A DNA stretch of 40,578 bases from a virus. Under the pieces are notes generated by a model that worked only from the letters and a program-made list of their open reading frames with translations, was not told the DNA's origin and searched no databases. Location: IMG/VR virus record IMGVR_UViG_3300027668_000040, positions 1-40,578 of that record; one strand, written 5' to 3'. The translations under genes and the position numbers were made by a program. Positions 4,728-25,426 of the stretch are shown here, in pieces; positions within the stretch are counted from its first letter, which is position 1, and every line of letters starts with the position of its first letter.

Positions 4728-5549
4728 TTATCCTATCATATAATCAAGTGGTAACTCGTAAGCTAGTTGAATTTGTTCTTCCAATCTAATGATTTCCTCT
4801 TGTGCTTGTTGAAATATTGTATCTCCATTCATTGTTACACCACCCAACATGGTAACACCAGAAAACTTACTAAGGTTTGCTCCCCATTGTCTTTTAATCA
4901 GTGCAGTGGCATATCTTTTCAAATAGATATCATCAAATACATCTGTATAAGATGTTGGGTCAAGTTTCCTGTAAGCCTCAATAACAACATAGTCTTGATC
5001 AGCAGTTACATCATTAGCCCAATCCATATCAATATACAAACGATTTTGGTGTTGATTAAATCTTATTGGTGTTTCTCCAACTAAGATATGTTCCAAGTAA
5101 TCTAGATGTTTCATTGTCATGTCATAATGAATGACTGATTGTGAAGAAAAATCATACAAGTCATTCAATCTTAATTGATAACGAACATCAAACATATTAC
5201 CATTTCCAGCTGTATTAGTAAAAGGAAAAACTTGAATAACAGATACCACTGTATCTGGAACAGGAATCCAGTTATTACCCTCTAACCAATCAGCAGTTAC
5301 AGTGCTATCAATTTTATCTGTAGCAGTCGCAGTATCATTTGACCTTGCTCTTGTAACTTCAGCAGTTGTAATTAAATGCTTTAGATACATTTTCTCAACA
5401 CCATCATAATGATATTGAGAAAAATATTGCAAAGCTTCATCTATACGATCATCTGCTTGATCATCAGACACATTAATATCAATAACACCAAATCCAAGAT
5501 TTCTTAGACAGTATGATTTAAATGTAGCTTTTGTTGTTGGTACAGCCAT
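4728..5549 (-). CDS. 13: Neck protein, T4 gp13-like
   Basis: 273 aa. The family-typical N-terminus (FKSYCLRNLG, then DDRIDEALQYFSQYHYDGVEK) is followed by a mid-protein segment beginning LEHILVG and a C-terminal KRQWGANLSKFSGVTMLGG block, all familiar from T4-like gp13 neck proteins. It completes the head with gp14 so that the tail can bind. The start ATG at 5549 overlaps the stop of the small coiled-coil gene upstream by one base. Gene order 13-14-15-16 supports the call. Confidence 0.9.
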   Translation of the reverse strand: MAVPTTKATFKSYCLRNLGFGVIDINVSDDQADDRIDEALQYFSQYHYDGVEKMYLKHLITTAEVTRARSNDTATATDKIDSTVTADWLEGNNWIPVPDTVVSVIQVFPFTNTAGNGNMFDVRYQLRLNDLYDFSSQSVIHYDMTMKHLDYLEHILVGETPIRFNQHQNRLYIDMDWANDVTADQDYVVIEAYRKLDPTSYTDVFDDIYLKRYATALIKRQWGANLSKFSGVTMLGGVTMNGDTIFQQAQEEIIRLEEQIQLAYELPLDYMIG

Positions 5550-5800
5550 TACTTATCTACCAATTGTTGCAAGAGATTTTTGATTTCATGCATCTCTGAT
5601 TTTAAAGTATTTATCTCTCTGGTTGTGCTTCTAATTCTGTCTCGTTGTTCTTCTTCTTCTTGCTGTTTTGCTTGGGCACTCCTTGCCCTCTTTACTGCTT
5701 TTTCGTATGCGTTTTTATTTCGATTTATAACAACGCCAGGAACATTAGCATCTTTAGCTAAATCTGGATGATCTTTAACCTTTTTATAATTATCATCCAT
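5549..5800 (-). CDS. Small coiled-coil protein, unknown function
   Basis: 83 aa, highly charged. Residues about 30-83 are rich in Glu, Arg, Lys and Gln with a heptad-like pattern (REINTLKSEMHEIKNLLQQL), predicting a coiled coil. It overlaps both neighbours by one base, so it is translated together with the 644-aa structural protein upstream and gp13 downstream. A small protein at this place is common in marine T4-like phages. It could be an assembly factor or chaperone for the neck or tail fibre, but I do not recognise it. Confidence 0.75.
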   Translation of the reverse strand: MDDNYKKVKDHPDLAKDANVPGVVINRNKNAYEKAVKRARSAQAKQQEEEEQRDRIRSTTREINTLKSEMHEIKNLLQQLVDK

Positions 5801-12654: not shown

Positions 12655-14196
12655 TTAAAATTCCACTATAATTTTAATATCTTCTGTTTGGTCTGTCGAT
12701 CTAGATATTGGTCTTCGATTTTCTTTATAGATAATGTCACCACTATCATATGCTAATTCTGGATTAGCATATCCATCTGCAAATGTAATTGTAGATGCAT
12801 TAGCAAGAGTAACAGCTGTATCAGCCCCAGCGTCTGGAGTTGCAACTGCACCAGAAGAAGCACCAGTAATAGCATTTTCTCCACTAAAAGCAACAAAAGC
12901 ACCTGTAGTAGAGTTTGTTCCAAAATCTGCATGTCTTTCCTGCTGATAATAAAGAATATTTAAATCAGCATCGAATTCAACAATCTTACCAATTGCATTA
13001 GTTGTTGCCTGTGATATTTTTTCATCAGGAGAGAATGTTCCACTTGGCGAACCTGTTCCAGTTGCAGGAAACTTGACTGCAAATGTTTGTCTTGCAGTGG
13101 CTGATGATGCAACTGTTGCTGAGCCAAATTCTGTTGGGTCTATAACTAACCCAACATTTCTAAAATCATTTCCAGCAGCAATATCGTCACCTTCTGCGCC
13201 TGTAAGTGTAGTATTCGTCATTACAAAATGAGCGCCCAATTCCTTTACGCCACTTGAACCATGGCCACCTTTGGGAGACACGATAATGTCAAACACAGGA
13301 TCAGTTGTTCCACCAATAGCAGAAGAAGTAGTTAATCCTGCATCTGAGAATGTGAAACCAGCAGCTATATTAACTGTTCCATAGGTGTAACCAGTACCAG
13401 CAGCATGAACTCCAGAGGTTGTAGAATCATTTGTTCCAAATGACTGAACTTTACCACTAGATATAATAATCCTAACAATAGCACCATTTGCCGTTCCAGA
13501 ATTAGCACCATCTCCATATACCGCTGCGTAATAAGTTCCGTCTGTACATCCAGCACCAAGATTTGTTACTTGAAAAGATTCGACCGCTCCATTAACTGAT
13601 GCAGCACTAACAGTACTATCTGTTATTACTGGCATAAAATCTGTTGTTAGAAATTTAGTTGCATTAGCGGCAGTTATTGTATACATATATTTAAGAACAT
13701 ACCCACCAGTAGTAAATAAAGATGTACTTTCTGAAGTAGGTTCTGCTCCACTAAATGCAGCGGCTGCTGTAAATTCTCCAGCTGGAATATTACTAATTAC
13801 TTTATAAACTCTATTTGCAGACGTTCTAAAATAGAATGTTGAAGTGTAAAGAGAAGATGCGCCGGAATCAGCTGTATTAAGGGAACTATAGTCATCCTTA
13901 TACATATCAAACTGAGTTCCATTTGACCAATCTCGTCTTGGAATAACTTGAAGAACATCTGTGGAACCAATTGCCTTTGCGCCTGTCATCTGATCCCAAA
14001 AATAAAACTCATCAGATACACTATCTGGGGGAGTTGGAGGAGAAGTGTCAGATGCACCGGCTCCATCATTTGTGCTAGAAAACGGTGTTGGTTTTCCGAT
14101 AAACAAATAATAGGCAGAAGGTGCCGCTTCAGTGAAAGATTCAACAAACTGTGAAGCATTGTGTAATTTAAATTTTTCTGTGATGATTGCTACCAT
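12655..14196 (-). CDS. 8: Baseplate wedge subunit, T4 gp8-like
   Basis: 513 aa, longer than T4 gp8 (334 aa). The N-terminal half has the gp8 features: a LFIGKPTPFS strand, WDQMTGAKAIGSTDVLQVIPRRDW, and YVLKYMYTI. The C-terminus DIIYKENRRPISRSTDQTED closely parallels the T4 gp8 end (GEMIYMENRPPIIMAMDQTEE). The extra length lies in an inserted Gly/Thr/Ala-rich beta region (about residues 215-450). gp8 is a wedge component that binds gp7 and gp10. Two late-promoter motifs stand directly upstream, so this gene restarts late transcription after the modification cassette. Confidence 0.92.
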   Translation of the reverse strand: MVAIITEKFKLHNASQFVESFTEAAPSAYYLFIGKPTPFSSTNDGAGASDTSPPTPPDSVSDEFYFWDQMTGAKAIGSTDVLQVIPRRDWSNGTQFDMYKDDYSSLNTADSGASSLYTSTFYFRTSANRVYKVISNIPAGEFTAAAAFSGAEPTSESTSLFTTGGYVLKYMYTITAANATKFLTTDFMPVITDSTVSAASVNGAVESFQVTNLGAGCTDGTYYAAVYGDGANSGTANGAIVRIIISSGKVQSFGTNDSTTSGVHAAGTGYTYGTVNIAAGFTFSDAGLTTSSAIGGTTDPVFDIIVSPKGGHGSSGVKELGAHFVMTNTTLTGAEGDDIAAGNDFRNVGLVIDPTEFGSATVASSATARQTFAVKFPATGTGSPSGTFSPDEKISQATTNAIGKIVEFDADLNILYYQQERHADFGTNSTTGAFVAFSGENAITGASSGAVATPDAGADTAVTLANASTITFADGYANPELAYDSGDIIYKENRRPISRSTDQTEDIKIIVEF

Positions 14197-14219: not shown

Positions 14220-14227
14220 TATTTATA
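14220..14227 (-). promoter_or_regulatory. Late promoter (TATAAATA) proximal to gp8
   Basis: The coding strand reads CTTATAAATA, a match to the T4 gp55/gp33-type late -10 element TATAAATA that also serves T4-like marine phages. It ends 24 bases upstream of the gp8 ATG. Confidence 0.7.
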
Positions 14228-14240
14228 AGATGTTTCTTTA

Positions 14241-14248
14241 TATTTATA
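14241..14248 (-). promoter_or_regulatory. Late promoter (TATAAATA) distal to gp8, overlapping the GNAT stop codon
   Basis: A second CTTATAAATA lies 21 bases upstream of the first and includes the TAA stop of the acetyltransferase gene. The tandem pair suggests strong, independent expression of gp8 and the genes after it. Confidence 0.65.
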
Positions 14249-14720
14249 AGTATTTTGATGCGATACAATTAGGTCCAAACTGTCCATCATCAAACCAATC
14301 AGATTTTTTGACAAACCCCGCATTCAAATAAGATTTCAGTGATGATTGTCTTGGAACAGTCCAAACCCAACTACCACCATTACTCCTTGCGTGTTCTAAA
14401 CAATGTATCAATATCAACTTTGACAATCCTTGTTTCCTATATTCTGGGTTCACCCATAACCCTCTTGATCTATAATATGTAAATATTCCTGTATCAGTTA
14501 CAAATACGCTATTAACACATACTATACTATCGTCAATTTCAATTCCAAAGAATGTTGGACTAGCATTCTTAGCCATCTCTTTGTCTTTACCTAAAAAGTT
14601 GTCTGTCCACTTCCACGTCCATTCATTTGTTTTTGCAACTCCATTTTTCTTATTGGGCCACAAATGTGTCTCCCATATAGGTTTTATATCTTCCCATCCT
14701 ATTTCTTTCACTTTATACAT
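14244..14720 (-). CDS. GNAT-family N-acetyltransferase
   Basis: 158 aa. Acetyl-CoA binding motif A is visible: a GLWVNPEYRKQGLSKLIL segment (strand, R-x-x-G, helix), followed by a WTVPRQSS strand and SLKSYLNAGF, the usual motif B position. Such enzymes acetylate amines of sugars, peptides or small molecules. I chose the ATG at 14720, which overlaps the glycosyltransferase stop by 8 bases in the same way as most junctions of this cassette; an ATG at 14777 would give a 64-base overlap and an N-terminus unlike GNATs. It is the last gene of the cassette. The acceptor is unknown; an amino sugar is plausible given its neighbours. Confidence 0.8.
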   Translation of the reverse strand: MYKVKEIGWEDIKPIWETHLWPNKKNGVAKTNEWTWKWTDNFLGKDKEMAKNASPTFFGIEIDDSIVCVNSVFVTDTGIFTYYRSRGLWVNPEYRKQGLSKLILIHCLEHARSNGGSWVWTVPRQSSLKSYLNAGFVKKSDWFDDGQFGPNCIASKYL

Positions 14721-15414
14721 GTATACTATAGTCCTCCCACAGATGTGGTTTATTGAGGGAATGAGTAAAGTGAACAAACTTTATATCTTCATGGAACTCT
14801 CCTCCAAGGTAGATATAATCATTTCCTGTTATGTCACTATATTTATTAGTCAACTCAATCTGCCATTTTGTCATACTCTTTCCATAATTTATACTTTCAT
14901 CTGTCACCCATCTTGTGAACCATGCCTCTGGAAGCGTTATCAACTCAAGATTCTCTTTTACTGAGTCTTCTACAAAATATTGTTCGCCGTTCACTGGTCC
15001 TTTGGTAGTTCCATTCTTAATATAATAATGTTGCCAGTGATTAGGATCACTCATAAACTTATCGAAAATATATTTACAATCCTTTGGGTAATATTTAAAG
15101 AACCCGCCATTTATTACATACCCACTCTTCTCTGTATCACGCCACCATCCCGGCATAGCAACAAATTGTCCACGCTCTACGGGATAATCAAAAACCTTTT
15201 CGTAATCATTAAATAAAAGAATATCAATGTCCATCACACAGATAGGTTCATCAATATTTAGTTGCATCCCCCACATCTTATTCCATTGTAAAATCACACC
15301 CATATCATATGGTTTTCTTATCCAAATAAATTCATGGTTGGGCAATTTTCTTTCCAGATATTCTTCATATTCTGGTCCGTATTTGTCACCTATTCTAACT
15401 GCTAATATTTTCAT
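14713..15414 (-). CDS. Glycosyltransferase-like protein (GT-A fold, DxD)
   Basis: 233 aa. The N-terminus MKILAVRIGDKYGPEYEEYL is followed by a CVMDIDILLFND strand that carries the DxD motif for nucleotide-sugar and metal binding, then a GWWRDTE and VINGGFFKY segment typical of GT-A proteins. The gene at 20832-21572 shares the GDKY..EY start, the D-x-D strand and GWW, so they are paralogs that flank most of the cassette. It overlaps the upstream oxygenase gene by 4 bases (ATGA) and the GNAT gene by 8. Donor and acceptor are unknown. Confidence 0.7.
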   Translation of the reverse strand: MKILAVRIGDKYGPEYEEYLERKLPNHEFIWIRKPYDMGVILQWNKMWGMQLNIDEPICVMDIDILLFNDYEKVFDYPVERGQFVAMPGWWRDTEKSGYVINGGFFKYYPKDCKYIFDKFMSDPNHWQHYYIKNGTTKGPVNGEQYFVEDSVKENLELITLPEAWFTRWVTDESINYGKSMTKWQIELTNKYSDITGNDYIYLGGEFHEDIKFVHFTHSLNKPHLWEDYSIHV

Positions 15415-16223
15415 GATGCATAAGGAAAAATCATTTTTGATTTTATCATATCTAAAGGTTGTACTCCAAAATATTTATTCGGTTTCCAATCACCATTTTC
15501 TTTTTCAAACCAAGGAATAAATGCGGCAACAATATGAACTCTTGGTTTAGTTGCTCCACCCGTATCCTTAACTCTGTGTTTTATTCTTGTGTTCCACATA
15601 TAAACCTTGCCAACCTCCAAATGTTTTGTTAGTGTTAGAGAGTTGCCATATTCATCAGTTCCATCAATTTCCAAAACATAAGATGGTTCTGTAATCAGTG
15701 GAATATTAAACCTTATAGCACACCAAAGAACTTCATCTACATGCCAACTTTGTTCATGACTGGGATACTCCCACATTACTCTTGATCTTGTTGGAAGTAA
15801 ATCCACACATTCTAAAAATTTACTATAATGTTTGTCAATAACTGGATGAACTGTAGAGAATCCGTATGTGTCATAGTAAGTATCTTTATCATCTTTCCAA
15901 GGAGGATTTGAATTATTCAATCGAGAATATGCCCAGTTCAATTCTGGATGACCGAGACTTGCATAAGGACTTTGTAAATGCTCATCACCCTTTGGATTCA
16001 TACAAATACTAAATCCTTTATATCTCTCTGCCTCTTTGTTATTTTTTTGCCATCCTTTGATACCACCAATGTCATTTGATATGTTTAGAGTTTGTTTGTA
16101 CAACCACTTTGCCGAGGGCATACCAAGTTCTTCTAAAGTAAACTCAAGAAAGTTATCCTCAATTTTTTCCTTATAGAAATCAAAGGCATTATATTTTTCA
16201 TTTAGTTCTGTAAATTTATCCAC
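15411..16223 (-). CDS. 2-oxoglutarate/Fe(II) oxygenase-like protein, Asp/Asn hydroxylase type
   Basis: 270 aa. Double-stranded beta-helix features: H161-x-D163 in SWHVDE, a distal H216 in NTRIKHRVKD, and R228 in KPRVHIV that could bind 2-oxoglutarate. This H-x-D...H...R arrangement is that of the aspartyl/asparaginyl beta-hydroxylase-like group. The start appears to be GTG at 16223, overlapping the upstream stop by 8 bases; the next in-frame ATG would remove 33 residues. It probably hydroxylates a peptide, sugar or metabolite made or moved by cassette neighbours. The substrate is inference only. Confidence 0.65.
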   Translation of the reverse strand: MDKFTELNEKYNAFDFYKEKIEDNFLEFTLEELGMPSAKWLYKQTLNISNDIGGIKGWQKNNKEAERYKGFSICMNPKGDEHLQSPYASLGHPELNWAYSRLNNSNPPWKDDKDTYYDTYGFSTVHPVIDKHYSKFLECVDLLPTRSRVMWEYPSHEQSWHVDEVLWCAIRFNIPLITEPSYVLEIDGTDEYGNSLTLTKHLEVGKVYMWNTRIKHRVKDTGGATKPRVHIVAAFIPWFEKENGDWKPNKYFGVQPLDMIKSKMIFPYAS

Positions 16224-16686
16224 TTATACATCCAACTATATGCACTCTATATTCTTCTGATCCATTTAATGCTGTATGATACTGTGTAGTATCAATTTCA
16301 TAATAATTGCCATCAGCAGGAAGATGCATAATCTCTTTGTTTACAATTATCCAACAGTTTTCATTTGTATAAACTGGTATGTGAATTCTCTTAGATGGGT
16401 CATTATGAATTGAATAACAAACTTTAGGACGTAAATATAATATTCTGGTTCTATACATGCCTAACTTTTTAAGTATAGAATTGGTATAAGGAATATCAAA
16501 ATTAGGGTATATGAAATCTTTTTCATAATACGGGTCACGGTCTTCATAGGGACCAACACCAAAATATGGGTCACCACCAACTTCTATCCCCTGCAAACAA
16601 ATTTGATCAAGCGAAGGATCATTTTTTGGTAAAACCATCAACTCATTTCTTATCTCTTCAATATCAAATGATATCTTCCTATACAT
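16216..16686 (-). CDS. Short Asp/Asn beta-hydroxylase-like (cupin fold) protein
   Basis: 156 aa. H94-x-D96 (CYSIHNDPSKRIHIP), H137 (DTTQYHTALN) and R147 (EYRVHIVG) form the same iron and 2-oxoglutarate ligand pattern as the neighbour just downstream, in a shorter chain. The strand after HxD (RIHIPVYTNENCWIIV) also fits the jelly-roll. Start ATG at 16686 overlaps the upstream stop by 8 bases (ATGTATAG). Two different oxygenases in a row suggest successive oxidation steps, or a heterodimer. Catalytic residues look complete, so it may be active. Confidence 0.65.
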   Translation of the reverse strand: MYRKISFDIEEIRNELMVLPKNDPSLDQICLQGIEVGGDPYFGVGPYEDRDPYYEKDFIYPNFDIPYTNSILKKLGMYRTRILYLRPKVCYSIHNDPSKRIHIPVYTNENCWIIVNKEIMHLPADGNYYEIDTTQYHTALNGSEEYRVHIVGCISG

Positions 16687-18049
16687 TTGTAATTCTCATA
16701 CGCTTCTTCAGTGGGTTTGATCCTTTTAGATAATAATATTCTGTATGGGTTTCTAAAGTATCAATAAGTCTGTCGAAACTATCAATCAATTCATCAAGTG
16801 TGTAACAAGCATGACTAACATGATAACCATATATATTACTAATATCAAAAAACACTTTTTTATTTTTTATACATTCAATTAGTTTTTCATAGTCAGGTTT
16901 TATTATATCCATCAACCAATAATCTACATTATAGTCATCATTCATTTTTTCTTGAAGCAACCTAAGTTCTTCAAAAGTTCCAAAAGTCTTTAATCGTTCT
17001 TTGATAATTTTGCCTTGAAGATAAATATCACTTATGTTGTGACTAAATTCCATATCGAATCCAGAAGATTTCAAAATATTTTTATAATCAAACATTTCTT
17101 CCATACTCATATTCATGTTAACTATATTTTGTTTTATTTCTAAATTCTCTGAGCAATAATCGTAAAATATAACATCTCCATCAAAATCTAATTTTTCTGC
17201 AAATACTTCTCCACTATATCCAGCTGTGGGAGTAAATATCAAATCAAATTTGTTTTCTGGAAGCCTTCCTAAAGACTCTGTATTTTCTGCATAGAACTTT
17301 TCATTCATTCTATTGAGAAGAATGTTAAAATATGGATCACTTTTATCTGTCTCCTCACGCCATCCCATTTTTTTAGAATTGATAAGCTCCCAATTTTTAT
17401 TTTGCATCTCTCTACGTTCATCCATATGACCATATGCCCAAGCTTTATGTCTACGTTCTTCGACTGGAAAATTTGTGATAGTAGGAAGTTTGTGAGGTGT
17501 CATCCATGAAGGAGTGTAGTCATCATGAAAATTATCATCTGCTCTTATAAAGGTATCCCATTTTTGTCTGATATTTGGTTTGTCCAACTTTCTCCATTTT
17601 TGAAGATTGAGTTCTATGTGTTGGTGATGAAGGAATGCTTTCTCATTGGGCCTTGCGATGATATGACCTCTACAAAATTCACCCGTCTTTGTCCAATCAT
17701 AAAATCTTTGAATTGCAGTTGTGTGACAAACCATGTCAAACACCATACCAACTGATACAATCATAGCATGAGTATAATTGTCACAAGTGCCTAACACATC
17801 ATTCAATTCAGTTAGATAACATACCTTTTGATCATGACCAGTTCCAGCCCCAGTAATACCACCAGAAGTTTGTAGCAAGGTTGTATGTAATTGTTTTTCT
17901 GCTGCAAAATTCCATTGTAATGTTACATAAGGTGCTGCTTTCTTATTTGGATATACAACAATAAAAATAAGATGTTTCAATTCTTTTTTTATTTTTATGC
18001 TATCTCTGTGTTCCAACCAAAGATTTTTAGTATCTTCAAAGCTTTTCAT
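16679..18049 (-). CDS. Two-domain protein of unknown function (GT-like N-half, Rossmann-like C-half)
   Basis: 456 aa from ATG 18049. An ATG at 18076 would add 9 residues; I prefer 18049 because its 14-base overlap with the upstream stop resembles other junctions. The N-terminal half has FIVVYPNKKAAPYVTLQWNF-like and YTHAMIVSVGMVFD strands and a segment starting GHIIARPNEKAFLHHQH, a pattern seen in marine phage proteins placed near glycosyltransferases. The C-terminal half (about residues 265-450) starts FDLIFTPTAGYSGEVFAEKL, goes on with VIFYDYCSENLEIKQ and ends with VFFDISNIYGYH, suggesting a Rossmann-like fold related to methyltransferases. No complete SAM motif is visible. I do not know the function. 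Confidence 0.6.
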   Translation of the reverse strand: MKSFEDTKNLWLEHRDSIKIKKELKHLIFIVVYPNKKAAPYVTLQWNFAAEKQLHTTLLQTSGGITGAGTGHDQKVCYLTELNDVLGTCDNYTHAMIVSVGMVFDMVCHTTAIQRFYDWTKTGEFCRGHIIARPNEKAFLHHQHIELNLQKWRKLDKPNIRQKWDTFIRADDNFHDDYTPSWMTPHKLPTITNFPVEERRHKAWAYGHMDERREMQNKNWELINSKKMGWREETDKSDPYFNILLNRMNEKFYAENTESLGRLPENKFDLIFTPTAGYSGEVFAEKLDFDGDVIFYDYCSENLEIKQNIVNMNMSMEEMFDYKNILKSSGFDMEFSHNISDIYLQGKIIKERLKTFGTFEELRLLQEKMNDDYNVDYWLMDIIKPDYEKLIECIKNKKVFFDISNIYGYHVSHACYTLDELIDSFDRLIDTLETHTEYYYLKGSNPLKKRMRITNV

Positions 18050-19322
18050 AGTATGGTTCCCACTCTGGAAATACATCAGTCAAACATGTTCCTCTGTGCT
18101 TGTCTCTCAATTGAATATCTGTCATCATCTCTTTGTGTAATTCTTCATCAAATGGCATATCTTGTAAGTAATAATACAGTTTTTTCCATTCTTCAAATTC
18201 TTTCTTCATAAAATCACCATACTCAAAATATTTATCCATATAGATTTCACGAATATCTAATGGGATGGATGTTACAGCATATTGATTTCCAGCACCCCAA
18301 ACTAAACTACCAGATGCCCAACTCCATAGATTACCAGAAATTGCTTTTGATTCATATTCTTTTCTTAGTTCATATACACCATCAGCAATTTCTGGAAGAT
18401 ACCCTATGGTCAAAGCATTGACTGTTGTTGCAAACATTACCCGTGTTCTTGGGCAGTCAGCAAATTTTCTTGCGTTCTCAAGTGTCACACCCCACTTAGA
18501 AGGAAATCTTATATAGTTATTTTTCTCTCCCCAAAATTCAATTGATACCGTCATCTGACAATCTTTGAAGTGAGGGATATAATCAAATACATCTTTACCA
18601 CCAAACTTAGGAGTAAGTGTGCCATTAGTTGTAATTCTTAGTGACATATTTTTACTCACATCTAAATCTACCGCAAGTTGCATTAAATCATAGTTTTCTT
18701 TTATTGCAAGTGTCTCACCACCAACAAGTTTTAATTCAACAAGATTTTTTAAAATATCAGCATAGTCTTCAACATTATCTTTTTCTTTTAGTAATGATGG
18801 TTTATCTTTGAAAGCACGCATACCGAAAGCGTCATGCAATCCAATATCTTTATTTTCTTGTGCTAAAGATGAAGAGTTTGCTGGACCACACATATTACAT
18901 CTCAAATTACAGAAATTACTAGGCGCAATATATTCCATAGATAAAAATTTTGGTTCACTCATATCTGTATTAATATATTCTTCTAGGTCTTCTAGATGTT
19001 CACGGTATTCACCATTCTTACCAGTAAATTTTTCTAAATATATTTGTCTATGACTTAAACTTGAATGTTTTTCTTGTTCAATGCAAACTGTACAATGATT
19101 TTGTGTTAGTGGTCCGCCCCCATTTAAAAATTCATTTCTAAAATTAACATACTCTTCTTTGTTATGCAATTCTTTAGGGTCAGTTGTCCCATATTTTTGT
19201 TTTATTCCTGTTTTAGGCCAGTCTTTTAAAACACAACAACCTGTAGGTGCAACGGTTCTATATACAAGAGTATTCATGAATGGTTGTGGACAAAACCATT
19301 CCAAGTCTTTTATTTTATTCAT
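18036..19322 (-). CDS. Radical SAM protein with extra N-terminal cysteines (twitch/SPASM type)
   Basis: 428 aa. The 4Fe-4S cluster motif is C138-x3-C142-x2-C145 in PSNFCNLRCNMCGP. Downstream ELKLVGGETL is the GGE strand and ITTNGT the next conserved strand of the radical SAM barrel. Before the core there are C11, C29/C30, C77 and C80, which could bind an extra cluster. I chose ATG 19322, since it overlaps the upstream stop by 8 bases (ATGAATAA); starting at 19394 would add 24 residues from the other frame. Such proteins use SAM to make a 5'-deoxyadenosyl radical and modify peptides, sugars or RNA. It is next to a second, smaller radical SAM gene. The substrate is unknown. Confidence 0.85.
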   Translation of the reverse strand: MNKIKDLEWFCPQPFMNTLVYRTVAPTGCCVLKDWPKTGIKQKYGTTDPKELHNKEEYVNFRNEFLNGGGPLTQNHCTVCIEQEKHSSLSHRQIYLEKFTGKNGEYREHLEDLEEYINTDMSEPKFLSMEYIAPSNFCNLRCNMCGPANSSSLAQENKDIGLHDAFGMRAFKDKPSLLKEKDNVEDYADILKNLVELKLVGGETLAIKENYDLMQLAVDLDVSKNMSLRITTNGTLTPKFGGKDVFDYIPHFKDCQMTVSIEFWGEKNNYIRFPSKWGVTLENARKFADCPRTRVMFATTVNALTIGYLPEIADGVYELRKEYESKAISGNLWSWASGSLVWGAGNQYAVTSIPLDIREIYMDKYFEYGDFMKKEFEEWKKLYYYLQDMPFDEELHKEMMTDIQLRDKHRGTCLTDVFPEWEPYYEKL

Positions 19323-19617
19323 AAACTGTTTCCTCTCTTGTGTCAGTATCAGTTCCACAATACATTGTGCAAATTTTTGGGACACTAGTTTCATTAATCA
19401 GTTTATTAAAAAAGTCAATCCATTCATCAGATAATGTAATATCATCAATTTCATTGACATTTTCTATATTTAATTCTTCCTTAAATAGATCATCCATCCC
19501 ATTCATATTGCCATCATAATCCGGTTTAAGTTTTCGTAGTGGGTCTGCCCAACAACAAGGCAACAAATAACCTTGAGAGTTTAAAGCAAATGATTTACCC
19601 TCTACACACTTTGGTTT
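19315..19617 (-). CDS. C-terminal part of the split radical SAM protein, in the +1 frame
   Basis: This open frame continues the gene at 19616-20209 in the +1 frame. It is open from about 19713, but its sequence makes sense only from the join. From there it encodes about 100 aa with KPKCVEGKSFALNSQGYLLP, then CC and a later CTMYCG, like the cysteine-rich SPASM end of radical SAM peptide-modifying enzymes. No good Shine-Dalgarno precedes an internal ATG (19653 is the best). The next gene's start overlaps this frame's stop (ATGAATAA), which suggests that ribosomes do reach it. It may be made by +1 frameshifting, or the split may be a mutation or sequence error. Confidence 0.6.
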   Translation of the reverse strand, partial: KPKCVEGKSFALNSQGYLLPCCWADPLRKLKPDYDGNMNGMDDLFKEELNIENVNEIDDITLSDEWIDFFNKLINETSVPKICTMYCGTDTDTREETVYE

Positions 19618-20209
19618 AAGCACAGTTGACCTCACTTGGTTTGTATGGATCATCAGGACTAGACCATCGTGAAGACTTGTTAATATGTATAGGAATCTTA
19701 TGACGTTGAGCAAGGCCTATTGCTTGAGTAATGTCATTCTCATTATACTTAAAGATTATATACTGCCATCTAATATCATTTCCAAGTTCAACACCGGCCT
19801 TCATTACCTTAAACAAATATTCACCATTCTGATTTATTCTATATTTATGACTGTCCTGTGGGAGTCCATCAATACCAAATTCCCATATAGCATTTTTGTT
19901 TGCAGAAAACGCATCCATATACCAATCCATAGATTTATGAGAAGCAGCAGTATGCACAAAGACTCTTTTGTTGGTTGTTAGTTTAAGAAATTCTATGAAC
20001 TGTGGGTGAAAGATTGGGTCAGATATTTGACCACAAAATTCTATCTGGTCAAAATGTTTGATAATCTTCTTGAAGTTTTCCAAGGACAAATCATCTAGAT
20101 TGTTAGTGGGAACAACACGTCTAAGACATTTCGGGCACTCTAATGTGCAACGATAAGTGATATCAAGATTTATACTTCTCCTAGATAAAACTGTCTCAAG
20201 ACTTTTCAC
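19616..20209 (-). CDS. Radical SAM protein, N-terminal core (gene interrupted by a +1 frameshift)
   Basis: 197 aa, with C21-x3-C25-x2-C28 (TYRCTLECPKCLRR) as radical SAM cluster motif, an IEFCGQISDPIFHP strand at the place of GGEP, and VFVHTAAS as the next strand. The core is complete, but the reading frame ends at TAA (19616-19618) just after KPSEVNCA, while the next frame goes on with KPKCVEG. Skipping one T (GCT T AAA) would give one protein of about 297 aa of normal SPASM family design. The start codon is GTG at 20209 with a 4-base GTGA overlap with the methyltransferase-like gene. It could be functional as a fusion by frameshifting, or degraded. Confidence 0.75.
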   Translation of the reverse strand: MKSLETVLSRRSINLDITYRCTLECPKCLRRVVPTNNLDDLSLENFKKIIKHFDQIEFCGQISDPIFHPQFIEFLKLTTNKRVFVHTAASHKSMDWYMDAFSANKNAIWEFGIDGLPQDSHKYRINQNGEYLFKVMKAGVELGNDIRWQYIIFKYNENDITQAIGLAQRHKIPIHINKSSRWSSPDDPYKPSEVNCA

Positions 20210-20844
20210 CTACCTATTACCATAAACCTAGTCATGCCATTAGGAAGAAGTCTTTCCCCTGCATATAGTATCTCTGCCAGATTTGCTTGGTCAGCTAATT
20301 CGTCAGCGTCATTAACACAATTAATGTGGTCATCATATTGAGTGTCGTTTGATGATTGAAGGATATACAATGCATCATCATTTACACCAGTATTTTTTAA
20401 TTCTTTAAACTTTGACATAGGATACATGTGTTCACAAGAGCAATTGATAACTGTATCAAAAGTAGGAGATGAAAGTGAAATCAAATTGCCAAACATAACA
20501 TTTCTTATTGATATCTTATATTTGTTGTCTTTTTTGTATCTTGTATTGAACTTATAAGCTACTTGTTTTATGTCTCTATCCATCTCAAAATTTTCTATCC
20601 ATTCAATAGATTCAATATTATCATAGAGTAGAGGGACAATGTATTGAGCAAACCATCCTGCCAGTAAAGATATGTTTACAGGTTTCACATTTAAATTTGA
20701 TAACTCTTCAACTAACCACATCTTACTAACCAGCTGCGATTCATTCATAGAATCTAAAACTCTTTTTCTCAAATATCCCTCTGAAGCATTGATTGCATTC
20801 TTCCAATCTTTTGCCATCTCTGGTGTGTATTTTAGATATTCCAT
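20206..20844 (-). CDS. Class I SAM methyltransferase-like protein
   Basis: 212 aa. ISLLAGWFAQYIVPLL sits at the place of motif I, IEWIENFEMDRDIKQVAYKF resembles motif II (acidic residue binding the ribose), and FDTVINCSCEHM is the strand-4 region, a set I recognise from methyltransferase-like proteins of marine phages. The glycine-rich loop is weak (LAGW rather than GxGxG), so activity is uncertain. It overlaps the upstream glycosyltransferase by 13 bases and the radical SAM gene by 4. It may methylate a sugar or peptide built by the cassette. Confidence 0.6.
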   Translation of the reverse strand: MEYLKYTPEMAKDWKNAINASEGYLRKRVLDSMNESQLVSKMWLVEELSNLNVKPVNISLLAGWFAQYIVPLLYDNIESIEWIENFEMDRDIKQVAYKFNTRYKKDNKYKISIRNVMFGNLISLSSPTFDTVINCSCEHMYPMSKFKELKNTGVNDDALYILQSSNDTQYDDHINCVNDADELADQANLAEILYAGERLLPNGMTRFMVIGR

Positions 20845-21572
20845 AATGATTTTAATTCCTCAGTATCGTTATCTTCACCACTGTTATTGAATAAGCAAAT
20901 CTTACATTCTTTTCTTTTTTTCTTTGACTCCATATCATCTGGAAAAACATTTCCCTTATACCAAGAATAAGCATCACCTTTTGCAAAAACATTTAGAAAT
21001 GATTTATCAGGCCTATCAACATCACTTCGTAATTCTTCATGCATGTTATACCAAAAATGATTTAGGTAGTTGTCAATAGTAGGATAGGTAAAAAATATAA
21101 CATCCAAATTATCATTGATATGTTTGTATACTTTTTGCAACTGTGTCCTATTCCATCGTATGACAGAGGAGTTTATCATTGGAGATTGAAACTTTGCAAA
21201 GTTCTTTTTACAAACCTCAATATCGTTCCACCAACCTTTAACAATATAAGGCCGCTCCATATCAAGCTCAAAAAAGTATTTTAAGTCTTGTTGAATAATA
21301 ACATCCAAATCAAGATATAAGAATTGATCACCTTTGATATCAATAGTTCTCTCATCGAACATATAGAGTTTTCTATATGCCCAAAACTTTCCATTCTCAT
21401 AGGCATCCCAAGTGGTGGGAAGTTGAATATCATAGGGGTGTGTTGGATTGTCTGTAAGGCAATAAAAATTGAATGGCACTGAACAGTTTTTTTCTACTTG
21501 GTCTTTTAACTTTTCAACATATTCATTATCATATTTGTCTCCCCACTTAACACATAATATAGTATTCTCCAT
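20832..21572 (-). CDS. Glycosyltransferase-like protein (GT-A fold, DxD), first gene of the cassette
   Basis: 246 aa. It begins with ILCVKWGDKYDNEYVEKL, has FYCLTDNP, and the DxD strand FLYLDLDVIIQQ, then YIVKGWWND and an INSSVIRW segment, all as in capsular-type GT-A enzymes. It is a paralog of 14713-15414. It starts one base after the stop of the 477-aa virion-like protein and has a good Shine-Dalgarno (GGAAGGGAG) before its ATG. A lysine-rich KKKRKECKICLF segment lies near the C-terminus. Substrates are unknown. Confidence 0.72.
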   Translation of the reverse strand: MENTILCVKWGDKYDNEYVEKLKDQVEKNCSVPFNFYCLTDNPTHPYDIQLPTTWDAYENGKFWAYRKLYMFDERTIDIKGDQFLYLDLDVIIQQDLKYFFELDMERPYIVKGWWNDIEVCKKNFAKFQSPMINSSVIRWNRTQLQKVYKHINDNLDVIFFTYPTIDNYLNHFWYNMHEELRSDVDRPDKSFLNVFAKGDAYSWYKGNVFPDDMESKKKRKECKICLFNNSGEDNDTEELKSLWNI

Positions 21573-23006
21573 TTACTCCCTTCCTGTTGCGATTCCTGCT
21601 TCATATCTAACAAGAGCTTCCATGTCTTGCGAGTCTATAGTCTCAACTGGTATTTTTGTAAGTGAGATCATTTCTTTGAACGCTTCAGCATCACCCGGAT
21701 TAAGTTCATCAGAGTCGATGATTATCCATACCTTTTTAATATTAAAATCATCAACCACAATCTCATCCCAATTATCATCAGTCTTGCGGCGTTTGACATA
21801 ATTAGTCAATGTGTCTTGAACCTGTTTAGCATTTTGTTTGAATACCTTTTCAACACCATCCATATAGTCTTTGATAATTTTTTGCATCACTCTACCAGCA
21901 GACTTGTCACCTTTGGTTTTTGCTTGCATATATGCTCCACGCATATATTGCCATTTTTCCCAATCACCTGTGCCCTTTGGTGCATCACCATCAAATGATT
22001 TTCCATACTTATTGACCAAAGTTTTCAGTAATCTTTCAAGACCTTTCGCCATTTTCACAACATCATCTGAACCCCACGGTCCTCTAAACCAATTAAAAGC
22101 CATCATTCTTCTACCAGACTTTTCTGGAATAGTGAATAAATCTTCTCTTGAAGCTGCAAGAACATTTCCATCGACCTCAACAACAAGTCCACTACCACCC
22201 TGCACACCGCCAGCAATTGGTCCTCTATCCATATTTGCAAAAGTAGATATAGAGCGTCTTGAGTTTTGGATTGCATACAGCTGGTCGAAGTTAGACATTC
22301 TTGTAACATGATAGACTGTGGCCCTAACTTCTTTCGGTAATGCTCTTTTGAATATGGAACCAGATAGTGGCAACCACATGTTGTTTGCAACCGAGCCGGG
22401 CCCACCTCTTATCGTTGAGGTAGTTGACGTATCTGATCCATGACCAGCAGAATCAAAAAGCAGTTCTGATAAACTCATTTGATGTGCTACAGATGCAAAG
22501 TCTCCAGTAGCAACTTCATCAAGTTTATGTTGCAAACTCTCAAATGATAACTTGGGGCTTGATGATGAAGTGGTGAAGTTCTTCTTTCTCATCACAGTCT
22601 TTGCGACCAACTCAATCTCACCTTTCTTGTATTTCAAAACAAAGGGTAGATTAATGTTAGTCTTCATATCATTGATGACAGCGTTTGCATCATCAGGCAT
22701 CTTTGCAATCTTCTTGCCGTGTCTTCGGTATGCTTGTTTGAAAAGACGAATAAGTTCTGCAACTGAAATCTGTTTAATATTACGAGCATCATTTACTCTA
22801 TCCATAAAGTGTCGAGTAAACTCTACATCAATATCTAATGATGCAAAGAGTCTATCAGCATATTTTTCTATTTGGTCAAGGTCAGACTTTGTAACCTTTT
22901 GCTCTGCGGCTGCATTAAGTCCAGCAGCAGTATCTCCCAAATCAGCCATAGGTTTGTATGATCCCATTGAACCACCACCAAAAGCGTATTCTTTGAAAGC
23001 TCCCAT
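21573..23006 (-). CDS. Unknown two-domain protein, probably virion associated; possible ADP-ribosyltransferase-like segment
   Basis: 477 aa. Residues about 60-160 hold FTRHFMDRVNDARNIKQIS, an HGKKIAKMPDDANAVI helix and a LVAKTVMRKKNF strand, a block common in marine T4-like phage proteins; the H...R...R, late V..K.V...K pattern recalls RelE/DUF4258-like small folds. Residues about 228-300 (VRATVYHVTRMSNFDQLY, RRSISTFANM, then GLVVEVDG) resemble the Y-H/STF/E order of ADP-ribosyltransferase-like folds. The rest is helical. Glycine-rich start MGAFKEYAFGGGSMG. Both fold ideas are my inference from short motifs; the recognised part is only that this is a conserved marine phage family. It lies between fibre genes and the modification cassette. 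Confidence 0.5.
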   Translation of the reverse strand: MGAFKEYAFGGGSMGSYKPMADLGDTAAGLNAAAEQKVTKSDLDQIEKYADRLFASLDIDVEFTRHFMDRVNDARNIKQISVAELIRLFKQAYRRHGKKIAKMPDDANAVINDMKTNINLPFVLKYKKGEIELVAKTVMRKKNFTTSSSSPKLSFESLQHKLDEVATGDFASVAHQMSLSELLFDSAGHGSDTSTTSTIRGGPGSVANNMWLPLSGSIFKRALPKEVRATVYHVTRMSNFDQLYAIQNSRRSISTFANMDRGPIAGGVQGGSGLVVEVDGNVLAASREDLFTIPEKSGRRMMAFNWFRGPWGSDDVVKMAKGLERLLKTLVNKYGKSFDGDAPKGTGDWEKWQYMRGAYMQAKTKGDKSAGRVMQKIIKDYMDGVEKVFKQNAKQVQDTLTNYVKRRKTDDNWDEIVVDDFNIKKVWIIIDSDELNPGDAEAFKEMISLTKIPVETIDSQDMEALVRYEAGIATGRE

Positions 23007-23515
23007 TACTTTGCCTTTTTTCTTTCTGCTCTTTGCTTTTCAGCTGAAAATAGTTTGCACAACTCTAATATATCTTCTGCTTTTCTAACTTTAGTTCTAA
23101 ATGTTTTGGAACCGTTCTTAACCATGTCTAAAGTAAATAAATACATCTTGGCTTTAAAAAGTTCATCTGTATGTGTATCTGGGTCGTACTCAAAAATTAC
23201 TTGAAAATGTTTATCGCTTACAGTTTCATGTTCCTGCAATACTTGATTTACTGATAATCTTTTAACTTCTTCATCAATAATATTTTGAAGTTCTTTTCTA
23301 TGTGCCGTATGCATTTCTACAGTAGAAGTTTCAATATCTTGATAAGTCATTTCTTTCAGCAAATCTTGAAATTGTGCCTCTGTCTCATCCACTACTAAAT
23401 GATATTCACTTACTAAAGTCTCACCATCCTTTTCGTAATTATATAGTATAGTTACATTGGAAAGATTTTCATCTGTATAATATACATTTACAATTTTATT
23501 AGAAAAAATAGCCAT
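23006..23515 (-). CDS. Hypothetical protein, 169 aa
   Basis: Acidic, strand-rich N-terminal half (VNVYYTDENLSNVTILYNYE, HLVVDETEAQFQDLL) and a helical basic C-terminus ending in KQRAERKKAK. No signal peptide or membrane segment. Its stop overlaps the start of the 477-aa gene by one base (TAATG), so the two are coupled. Proteins of this kind occur near tail genes in T4-like marine phages, but I know no function. Confidence 0.75.
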   Translation of the reverse strand: MAIFSNKIVNVYYTDENLSNVTILYNYEKDGETLVSEYHLVVDETEAQFQDLLKEMTYQDIETSTVEMHTAHRKELQNIIDEEVKRLSVNQVLQEHETVSDKHFQVIFEYDPDTHTDELFKAKMYLFTLDMVKNGSKTFRTKVRKAEDILELCKLFSAEKQRAERKKAK

Positions 23516-23526
23516 AATATATTCCT

Positions 23527-24612
23527 CTATGCTTTATTTATTTTGAATAAGAAAGTGGTAGTAGTTGTTGCTGATCCAGAAGGAAATTGTTGTGCCCGAT
23601 AGTCGTTGGCATTAACAAGAGTAGTGCTGGTTGCTGCACTTCCTAATTGTTTATTAAGTATACTACTGCCTCTCTGTGTCCCACTAACACTTGCACCAAT
23701 AGCATATGTAATCTTGAAACCATCTGCTGATTGTCCAGCAGTAAACCTTAACCAGTTGCCAAGTAGTGTGCTAAACCCTGTTATTTCATTCTCCATTAAC
23801 ATGTTATCAGAGTCTGTTTCATCAATAATATTATCTCCAGCATTAGCAGCACTTCCATCTGTTCCACCATCTTCAATAACAATAAACGTGGATTCTCCAT
23901 CAACATACTCTTGTATATCACCATCCGAATTGATAGATAGCGGTTCAACAACAGGATCAACATCTGTTCCATCTCTTCTCATTAAAAAGAAACTTTGAAC
24001 TGTACTTGCTACACCAATTTGAGTAGTTGTTGCCCCACCAATGCTACCAGCTGCAAATCCTGTTGAAGTTGTATCTGTAAATATTGGTATAGCAGCGCCA
24101 GAAACTTCTGTAAAATCGCTAAGAGTTGATGATGTATGAATTCGATATGTTCCGGCAACATTAGAATCGTCTGCACTGGCATCTGCCACAACCATTAGAT
24201 TGATTGCTGGGTGAAGAAACGTATCCTTTAAATCTTCTAATGACATTGCTTGAATATCACCATCACTATTACGAAAAATTGGAAACGCTCTATTATCATT
24301 ATCATTTGTCTGACCAACAGTAATGTTATACTGAAAATCAATCTTATCAAAAGATACATCGGTTGTTGCTGAAGGTGCGCCAGCGGAAGAAGATGGGTCT
24401 GCACTTACACTTACCACAGCAGCACCAGTTTGTAATCTTGTGTCGGTAATAGCAGCCATATTTGCACCACTATTAGAAACAACCTCAAGTTCAGCAGATG
24501 GGTTTAATGAATATTGAAAGATAGCTCTCTGTTGCCATAATAAAATTTGGGCATCAGTCATCTCTTGCAAGTCATTATCGCTATTGATGAAAAGTGGTTT
24601 TACAGCTGCCAT
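23527..24612 (-). CDS. Tail fibre-like structural protein with GTD/NAG repeat
   Basis: 361 aa, rich in Ser, Thr, Ala, Gly and Asp. Three short SDGDIQ-like motifs (NSDNDLQEMT, NSDGDIQAMS, NSDGDIQEYV; about residues 11, 121 and 226) mark repeated units. The segment GGTDGSAANAGDNIIDETDS matches the repeat found in the next upstream protein and in the 1854-aa protein. C-terminus GSATTTTTFLFKINKA is a plain strand. These traits fit a fibre or fibre-tip protein; no enzymatic motif is seen. Confidence 0.7.
   Translation of the reverse strand: MAAVKPLFINSDNDLQEMTDAQILLWQQRAIFQYSLNPSAELEVVSNSGANMAAITDTRLQTGAAVVSVSADPSSSAGAPSATTDVSFDKIDFQYNITVGQTNDNDNRAFPIFRNSDGDIQAMSLEDLKDTFLHPAINLMVVADASADDSNVAGTYRIHTSSTLSDFTEVSGAAIPIFTDTTSTGFAAGSIGGATTTQIGVASTVQSFFLMRRDGTDVDPVVEPLSINSDGDIQEYVDGESTFIVIEDGGTDGSAANAGDNIIDETDSDNMLMENEITGFSTLLGNWLRFTAGQSADGFKITYAIGASVSGTQRGSSILNKQLGSAATSTTLVNANDYRAQQFPSGSATTTTTFLFKINKA
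23535..23542 (-). promoter_or_regulatory. Weak late-promoter candidate (AATAAATA) before the 169-aa gene
   Basis: The coding strand reads AATAAATA, fitting the looser NATAAATA late motif of T4-like marine phages, 19 bases upstream of the ATG at 23515. It overlaps the end of the fibre gene. AT-rich chance matches of this kind also occur inside genes. Confidence 0.35.
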
Positions 24613-24615
24613 TTT

Positions 24616-25398
24616 CTACACACTATTGATTGTTCTCACAACCATTCCAGCAGAATCTATAACATTAAATACAGAACCCACTAAATCGGTGGCTGATTCG
24701 TGAATGATATCGTCTGAGTCGGTTTCATCAATAATATTATCTCCCGCATTTGCGCCAGCACCATCCGTTCCACCAGCTTCAATCACAAGGAATGAACCTC
24801 TTGTAGTGGTGCTGATTTCAATTGAGTTGACTGGGAGTGCTGGAATTTGACTAAAGGTTACTATACCAGTTGAAGCAATTGTAATTGAGTCTGCGTCTGA
24901 AGCAGAACCAATAGTAGAACCATCCCCAATAACAACATTACCAGAAACATCTAGGTTTGCATTGATATCTACAAGAGTAGCATTTAATTCAATTTCATCT
25001 GTTGCATTAATATCTAGTGTAGTTCCGTCAGGAGCGCCGATATTTTGAGTGGCATCATTGAATTGAATTACACTTGTGCTATTAAGCAACAGACCAGTGT
25101 TATGAACGTGAGTAAGGTTGACTTCGCTATTTTGGCCGAAGTTTAATATTGCCCCATCAGAGTCAAGGGAGATATCATTTCCAACAGTTAAATCACCAGA
25201 AAGATCAAGGGTCGCACCAGCAATCGTTCCTGTAAAGGTTGGACTAGCAGTTGTGACTGGGGTATCAAGTGTAGTGCCATCTCCAAGAGAATTATAAAGC
25301 TCTAGAAAATTGTCATTGATTTTGTCACCGGCGGCTCGCAGGGTGTCACCTGTTCCGTCATCTGCAACTGAACCTAATCCTATTGTTTGATTTGCCAT
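24616..25398 (-). CDS. Tail fibre-like protein (T4-type fibre N-terminal motif)
   Basis: 260 aa. The N-terminus has GDTLRAAGDKINDNFLELY, a motif found at the start of many T4-like tail fibre and baseplate-attached proteins. After it come beta-helix-like repeats (ATLDLSGDLTVGNDISLDSD, then VDINANLDVSGNVVIGDGS). The segment GGTDGAGANAGDNIIDETDS (about residues 210-230) is nearly the same as in the next gene. A late promoter lies just upstream and a good Shine-Dalgarno (AGAAGGAAA) precedes the ATG. Its role is probably host recognition or fibre attachment. Confidence 0.78.
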   Translation of the reverse strand: MANQTIGLGSVADDGTGDTLRAAGDKINDNFLELYNSLGDGTTLDTPVTTASPTFTGTIAGATLDLSGDLTVGNDISLDSDGAILNFGQNSEVNLTHVHNTGLLLNSTSVIQFNDATQNIGAPDGTTLDINATDEIELNATLVDINANLDVSGNVVIGDGSTIGSASDADSITIASTGIVTFSQIPALPVNSIEISTTTRGSFLVIEAGGTDGAGANAGDNIIDETDSDDIIHESATDLVGSVFNVIDSAGMVVRTINSV

Positions 25399-25418: not shown

Positions 25419-25426
25419 TATTTATA
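25419..25426 (-). promoter_or_regulatory. Late promoter (TATAAATA) before the 260-aa fibre gene
   Basis: Coding-strand GTATAAATA, ending 20 bases before the ATG at 25398. It overlaps the stop codon end of the 1854-aa gene, as in the gp8 case. Confidence 0.65.

Follow-up and report, generated by a model that had tools for sequence, protein, structure and literature searches.

A conserved enzyme cassette linked to tail fibre genes in a T4-like myovirus, with a putative role in glycan tailoring

The IMG/VR record IMGVR_UViG_3300027668_000040, whose 40,578 nucleotides (40.6 kb) were analysed in full and are hereafter called the window, belongs to a T4-like myovirus. Compared by the baseplate wedge gene gp8, it is closest among cultured phages to the Melnitz phages (55% identity) of marine Methylophilales and next closest to the Pelagibacter phages Mosig and HTVC008M. 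Between its structural genes lies a compact block of enzyme genes (14244-21572), which raises the question of what these enzymes make and on which molecule they act. The reading preferred here, to which we give an even chance, is that the block is a fibre-linked glycan-tailoring cassette which builds a glycan and attaches it to the tail fibres.

A recurrent gene block beside the fibre genes

The head-to-tail arrangement described in the initial annotation was confirmed on the minus strand, with the difference that the block consists not of nine genes but of ten co-directional overlapping open reading frames (ORFs), all intact, since the core and the SPASM domain of one radical S-adenosylmethionine (SAM) enzyme are separate ORFs. 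In the order of the block they are:

20832..21572, minus: GT1, GT-A (GT8-like) glycosyltransferase (PHROG 1962 glycosyltransferase match, 5e-7; Pfam GT8, 0.008, under the family cut-off; invariant DLD)
20206..20844, minus: MT, methyltransferase-like protein (sequence motifs; no library match)
19616..20209, minus: rSAM1, radical SAM core half with CTLECPKC (PHROG 21308, 2e-13; NCBIfam TIGR04317, 1e-10, below cut-off)
19315..19623, minus: SPASM half of rSAM1 as a separate ORF (8-base overlap GTGCTTAA with rSAM1)
18036..19322, minus: rSAM2, N-terminal-twitch radical SAM protein (NF033640, 5e-72)
16679..18049, minus: TWO, predicted GT-A domain (residues ~20-230) and class-I methyltransferase fold (~223-456) (structure model)
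16216..16686, minus: OX1, Asp/Asn-hydroxylase-type 2-oxoglutarate (2OG) oxygenase (PF05118, 2e-7)
15411..16223, minus: OX2, putative 2OG oxygenase (invariant HxD...H...R)
14713..15414, minus: GT2, GT-A glycosyltransferase, paralog of GT1 (profile comparison; invariant DID)
14244..14720, minus: GNAT acetyltransferase (PF00583, 2e-7)

Overlaps of 4 to 14 bases, many of exactly 8, had been noted before, and the measured values agree: 13 bases for GT1/MT, 4 for MT/rSAM1 and OX2/GT2, 14 for rSAM2/TWO, and exactly 8 at five of the nine junctions (rSAM1/SPASM, SPASM/rSAM2, TWO/OX1, OX1/OX2 and GT2/GNAT). The same gene set in the same order was found in dozens of contigs, and the ratios of nonsynonymous to synonymous substitution rates (dN/dS) calculated against window-type relatives fall at 0.05-0.33 across the cassette genes, the separate core and SPASM ORFs of the radical SAM enzyme among them. 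The cassette genes are thus under purifying selection and none of them is decayed. Owing to this ordered recurrence and the low dN/dS values, the block is considered more than a chance assembly; in the relatives the genes are linked and ordered rather than scattered, so the earlier proposal of a joint set holds.

The recurrent core seen in the gene maps runs from fib1-fib2-g5 through GT1-MT-c5ox-TWO-(OX1, OX2 or another 2OG-type gene)-GT2, often with GNAT after it, to the neck gene; c5ox, the Asp/Asn hydroxylase of most relatives, is absent from the window. The accessory genes vary between loci and include radical SAM, carbamoyltransferase, SGNH-like, sulfotransferase-like, APH-like and PP-loop genes; two of these labels, sulfotransferase and PP-loop, were given by inspection of sequences that matched nothing in Pfam. 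The genes that precede the block in the window are:

24616..25398, minus: fib1, repetitive tail fibre / baseplate-connector protein (PHROG 677, 9e-17)
23527..24612, minus: fib2, fibre-associated protein, adjoining the cassette in relatives
23006..23515, minus: g5, conserved partner next to fib2
21573..23006, minus: lineage-specific gene between g5 and GT1, outside the conserved core

The linkage between fibres and cassette was examined in loci fetched by GT2 (257 places in IMG/VR) and, as a reverse test, by fib2 (514 places), 80 of each being read; a fib2 locus was counted as cassette-bearing if at least two cassette families lay within 8 kb. The cassette was found within this distance in 60 of the 64 informative fib2-fetched loci, on the same strand in 27 and on the opposite strand in 33, and fib2 or g5 lies upstream in 36 of the 37 cassette-fetched (GT1) loci having enough upstream sequence, although some contigs are near-duplicates and the locus counts are not all independent events. 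The single exception among the 37, L028, has a fib2 homologue just past GT2 on the other strand; L028 and L029 show a distant arrangement, in which several radical SAM genes, MT, and GT1 and GT2 relatives are convergent with the fib2 homologue. In L131, L133, L135 and L136 fib2-g5 is directly followed by GNAT and the neck gene, and these represent natural cassette-less versions; among the four informative fib2 loci lacking a recognised cassette, three have the order g5-GNAT-neck.

Among cultured phages fib2 has one relative, in Mosig (Pelagibacter HTCC1062), which carries fib2, g5, an epimerase gene and distant GT1/GT2-like genes. The g5 product, with no credible match among solved structures, is possibly an assembly factor. 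The N-terminal 71 amino acids (aa) of fib1 are 51% identical to Melnitz; a chimeric origin (a lineage-specific N-terminus with a transferred tip) is not claimed, as the repetitive nature of fib1 leaves no clean breakpoint. The 477-aa gene between g5 and GT1 has relatives in 79 IMG/VR loci, and since many matches span residues 36-160 alone, a two-part mosaic is probable.

Enzyme assignments and relatives

The two GT-A paralogs of the initial annotation are well borne out, with a profile-profile probability of 94.7% over ~90 residues between GT1 and GT2 and a D-x-D motif invariant within each family; this motif together with GT-A/GT8 similarity places both among predicted GT-A glycosyltransferases. 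GT2 gave no credible match to solved structures and, at E 1e-5, zero matches in 50,697 records of cultured phages, so that the chemistry of the cassette lies outside present laboratory models, although fib2, g5 and distant GT1/GT2-like genes occur in Mosig. The methyltransferase-like character of MT was retained on the motifs, and no profile similarity was found between MT and the methyltransferase-like half of TWO.

What had been recorded as a two-domain unknown could be sharpened by a confident structure model of TWO (mean pLDDT 91.7). Per-domain alignments, on which the fold call rests, whole-chain Foldseek matches being weak, relate the first half to GT-A transferases such as LARGE1 and LH3 (Z 8.3-8.6) and the second to class-I methyltransferases (Z 8.5-10). 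As these Z values are moderate, TWO is regarded as a probable GT-A plus methyltransferase-fold protein with predicted activity.

Two H-x-D oxygenase-like proteins had been proposed as well. OX1 passes PF05118, the Asp/Arg hydroxylase family in Pfam, with 31.2 bits against a gathering cut-off of 22.6, as does c5ox with 35.5 bits (invariant residues H128, D130, H185 and R195). For OX2, which had no Pfam match, a weak profile comparison with c5ox (E 0.41) and a structure model too poor to use (mean pLDDT 57.5), the putative assignment comes from the motif.

Two radical SAM enzymes had also been reported, and both are present, the first of them divided between two overlapping ORFs, core and SPASM, instead of a single radical SAM/SPASM chain; the Pfam scores of both parts are under the gathering cut-off. 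The rSAM2 protein passes NF033640 with 243 bits (curated cut-off 170), its CxxxCxxC motif being present as CNLRCNMC. The split is considered real because the same junction recurs in several independent contigs; a sequencing error was ruled out on this ground and because both halves are under purifying selection. In total, 36 overlapping pairs of radical SAM core and SPASM genes were found versus 19 fused genes of at least 280 aa, and the split form was seen in the window (19315-20209), L002, L004, L010, L011, L021, L111 and others. Since the junction sequences differ widely between lineages, splitting may have happened repeatedly. Reinitiation, suggested by this divergence together with the usual 8-base start/stop geometry, offers a simpler account of the junction than a programmed frameshift, which was also considered and may apply. 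The radical SAM genes are accessory, with many loci carrying GT1-MT-c5ox-TWO-GT2 and none of them. L006, L007 and L012 also contain close homologues of rSAM2 (52-55%), which lie at other places in T4-like structural regions and are not accompanied by the remaining cassette genes.

Of 369 Bdellovibrionota genomes, 13 contain relatives of TWO. In the 14 loci examined there the hydroxylase is fused to TWO in seven, adjacent to it in five and in one cluster with it in one, often among many radical SAM genes. L286, L287 and L291 contain arrays of N-twitch radical SAM paralogs with Asp/Asn hydroxylases and TWO homologues, and L291 has split radical SAM/SPASM genes too. On the viral side, pelagiphage-type fib2 loci have a gene for an NAD-dependent epimerase between fib2 and g5 (1e-25), with a DegT aminotransferase (2e-79), a GT8-like transferase and a nitroreductase-like protein nearby, and a carbamoyltransferase (1.5e-49) is found in related loci.

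Genomic position and expression

The following features define the position of the block in the window and its possible transcription:

25419..25426, minus: TATAAATA, T4-type late promoter motif ahead of fib1 and the closest one on the upstream side of the cassette
14241..14248, minus: first of two TATAAATA motifs before gp8
14220..14227, minus: second of two TATAAATA motifs before gp8
12655..14196, minus: gp8, baseplate wedge, the downstream boundary of the block (PHROG 438, 1.5e-121)
4728..5797, minus: empty canonical host-recognition site, where the small gene c16 (5549-5797) directly adjoins the neck gene (4728-5549)

The host-recognition cluster (HRC) of pelagimyophages, described by Zaragoza-Solas et al. 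2020 (PMC7029224), is a hypervariable region flanked by VrlC and the neck gene; it contains tail fibres, radical SAM cassettes and GT8-type glycosyltransferases. The window shares with it the virus group and the gene classes, namely fibres with glycosyltransferases and variable genes. In most relatives the fibres and the cassette sit between c16 and the neck gene, in agreement with that description, but in the window, where the neck gene is 65-67% identical to annotated neck proteins, the whole unit lies between a gp7-like gene and gp8. As c16 adjoins the neck gene there, the unit is interpreted as HRC-type content at another site. Insertion between tail genes, as initially annotated, is therefore correct for the window and unusual among its relatives; likewise, the search for the same set at the same place recovered the set in order, mostly at the c16-neck site and in several contigs in the gp8-type arrangement. 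The downstream side of the latter together with an empty c16-neck site is seen in L035-L039 and its upstream side in L125 and L126, and in HTVC008M the gp7-like gene and gp8 have nothing between them. L111, a contig labelled as a Flavobacteriales metagenome-assembled genome (MAG), also bears the phage cassette together with neck genes and is for this reason considered a viral sequence binned into a bacterial MAG.

Tandem late promoters before gp8 had been proposed. Both motifs are there. With 6 occurrences in the window against 5.3 expected, the motif is no more frequent than by chance, but all six are on the coding strand, and in relatives it stands before gp8 in 7 of 8 cases and before the neck gene in 73 of 84. 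It was found neither between the fib1 motif (25419) and the gp8 pair nor, in relatives, before any of several hundred starts of core cassette genes. As judged from a scan for the T4-type late motif, we infer that the window cassette would be readable only late, from the fibre transcription unit, barring an unrecognised internal promoter. Co-transcription with the fibres as a general rule was rejected because of the opposite orientation in 33 of the 60 loci.

Possible acceptor and biological role

If the block is a fibre glycan cassette, its enzymes would act late in infection in the cytosol of the infected cell. The 2OG hydroxylases (OX1/OX2, or c5ox in most relatives) would hydroxylate the acceptor or a sugar, the three GT-A domains of GT1, GT2 and TWO would assemble a short glycan, and the methyltransferase(s), GNAT and radical SAM enzymes would decorate it, with carbamoyl-, sulfo- and amino-transfer added in relatives. 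The acceptor would most likely be a tail-fibre protein, fib1 or fib2, as suggested by the linkage, the late position and the fusion of hydroxylase and glycosyltransferase in Bdellovibrionota, and the likely benefit would be either a protected fibre or a change in adsorption or in host range. Chemical decoration of fibres is also suggested by the fact that the cassette stays behind the fibre genes even when the fibre locus lies elsewhere. A decorated glycan is the most likely product, given that related loci add a sugar epimerase as well as genes of carbamoyltransferase, aminotransferase and sulfotransferase-like type. A membrane segment is predicted in only 16 of the 1087 ORFs of these regions, as expected if the acceptor is soluble. 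Several points speak against this interpretation. GT8 enzymes without membrane segments of their own also act on lipopolysaccharide (LPS) at the inner membrane, so the paucity of such segments is not decisive; sugar-nucleotide genes are absent from the window cassette; and the acceptor is deduced from context. The assignments of MT and OX2 are motif-based, and the cassette faces away from the fibres in the 33 loci mentioned. Four of the 64 informative fib2 loci have no recognised cassette, so it is not essential, and host-recognition regions are hypervariable and gather many genes.

The initial annotation left the choice between a modified sugar and a peptide, on fibres or on the host surface; sugar-type modification of one or the other is the best reading. 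The main rival to a fibre glycan, on the unlikely side yet already published for pelagimyophages, is that the cassette alters a host surface glycan (LPS O-chain or outer core) and thereby blocks superinfection by competing phages. Host O-chain modification is proposed in PMC7029224 on the grounds that the enzymes belong to GT8 and that restriction systems are rare in SAR11, and it fits the epimerase and aminotransferase genes of related loci, which suit surface-sugar synthesis, as well as the place among host-recognition genes, which suits selection on adsorption. A late position behind the fibres, on the other hand, is better suited to virion maturation, as superinfection exclusion should act early; flippase-, polymerase- and initiating-transferase-like membrane proteins are not regular in these loci, and the fused hydroxylase/glycosyltransferase proteins suggest a hydroxylated acceptor.

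A modified peptide or small molecule (similar to ribosomally synthesized and post-translationally modified peptides, or aminoglycoside-like), with the radical SAM/SPASM enzymes at the centre, is quite improbable. The radical SAM/SPASM, twitch, 2OG, methyltransferase, GNAT, carbamoyltransferase and APH-like kinase genes are indeed of natural-product tailoring types, and the Bdellovibrionota relatives lie within arrays of many radical SAM genes, but in the viruses these genes are optional, and the gene maps show neither a conserved short precursor ORF nor a regular exporter. That there is no joint pathway at all, the region being a plastic landing zone which collects glycan enzymes beside fibres, both under diversifying selection, is very improbable. 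Hypervariability (PMC7029224), the free turnover of accessory genes and the cassette-less fib2-g5 loci running to GNAT and the neck gene would agree with it, but the order GT1-MT-...-TWO-x-GT2 is kept across widely diverged contigs, also where the fibre locus is elsewhere, and bacteria have the hydroxylase and TWO as one fused protein.

The closest functional analogue of a fibre glycan cassette may be the hydroxylysine hydroxylase/glucosyltransferase represented by human LH3 and mimivirus L230 (PMC9546862). There, too, a 2OG hydroxylase is coupled to a GT-A transferase acting on a fibre-like (collagen-like) protein, the two activities being fused as in the Bdellovibrionota relatives; the alignment of the TWO GT-A domain with LH3 (Z 8.3) indicates homology at the fold level only. 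The cassette hydroxylase, however, is of the Asp/Asn type (Asp/Arg hydroxylase family) rather than a lysyl hydroxylase, which places it outside the LH3/L230 group, and TWO bears a methyltransferase-fold domain. In mycobacteriophages, phage-encoded glycosyltransferases act on virion proteins. The mycobacteriophage systems differ from the cassette in having capsid and tail targets and few enzymes, and they are not known to include a hydroxylase or radical SAM protein. Glycosyltransferases suggesting capsid glycosylation are noted in PMC11256854. T4-like cyanophages such as P-SSM2, which are likewise marine T4-like phages with clustered glycan genes, have LPS-related clusters devoted mostly to sugar-nucleotide synthesis.

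The claim of an undescribed system was too strong, since the region and the gene classes were published in 2020 (PMC7029224). Within the open-access literature, the conserved core order, the fib2-g5 linkage (at two genomic positions and in both orientations), the relocation, the TWO fold and the hydroxylase/TWO fusion appear to be new; in its accessible text the HRC is presented without the conserved core operon, the fib2-g5 linkage or the identity of TWO. A broader view, put forward tentatively and short of an even chance, is that marine T4-like phages possess a module of fibre and modifying enzymes that can be transferred as a unit. Its Asp/Asn-type hydroxylases and its bifunctional proteins of GT-A and methyltransferase type would hydroxylate, glycosylate and decorate the fibre that recognises the host, host range being set by a chemical coat in addition to the fibre sequence, and its hydroxylase-glycosyltransferase pair would be common to the multi-radical-SAM islands of Bdellovibrionota.

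The fibre linkage yields a short list of candidate substrates (fib1 and fib2) and an enzyme pair (the hydroxylase plus TWO). If a fibre is the acceptor, enzymes usually labelled as LPS genes would need to be re-read, a mislabelling once undergone by mimivirus L230 (PMC9546862), and host recognition in abundant ocean phages would depend on post-translational glycan chemistry that is missed by sequence-based host prediction.

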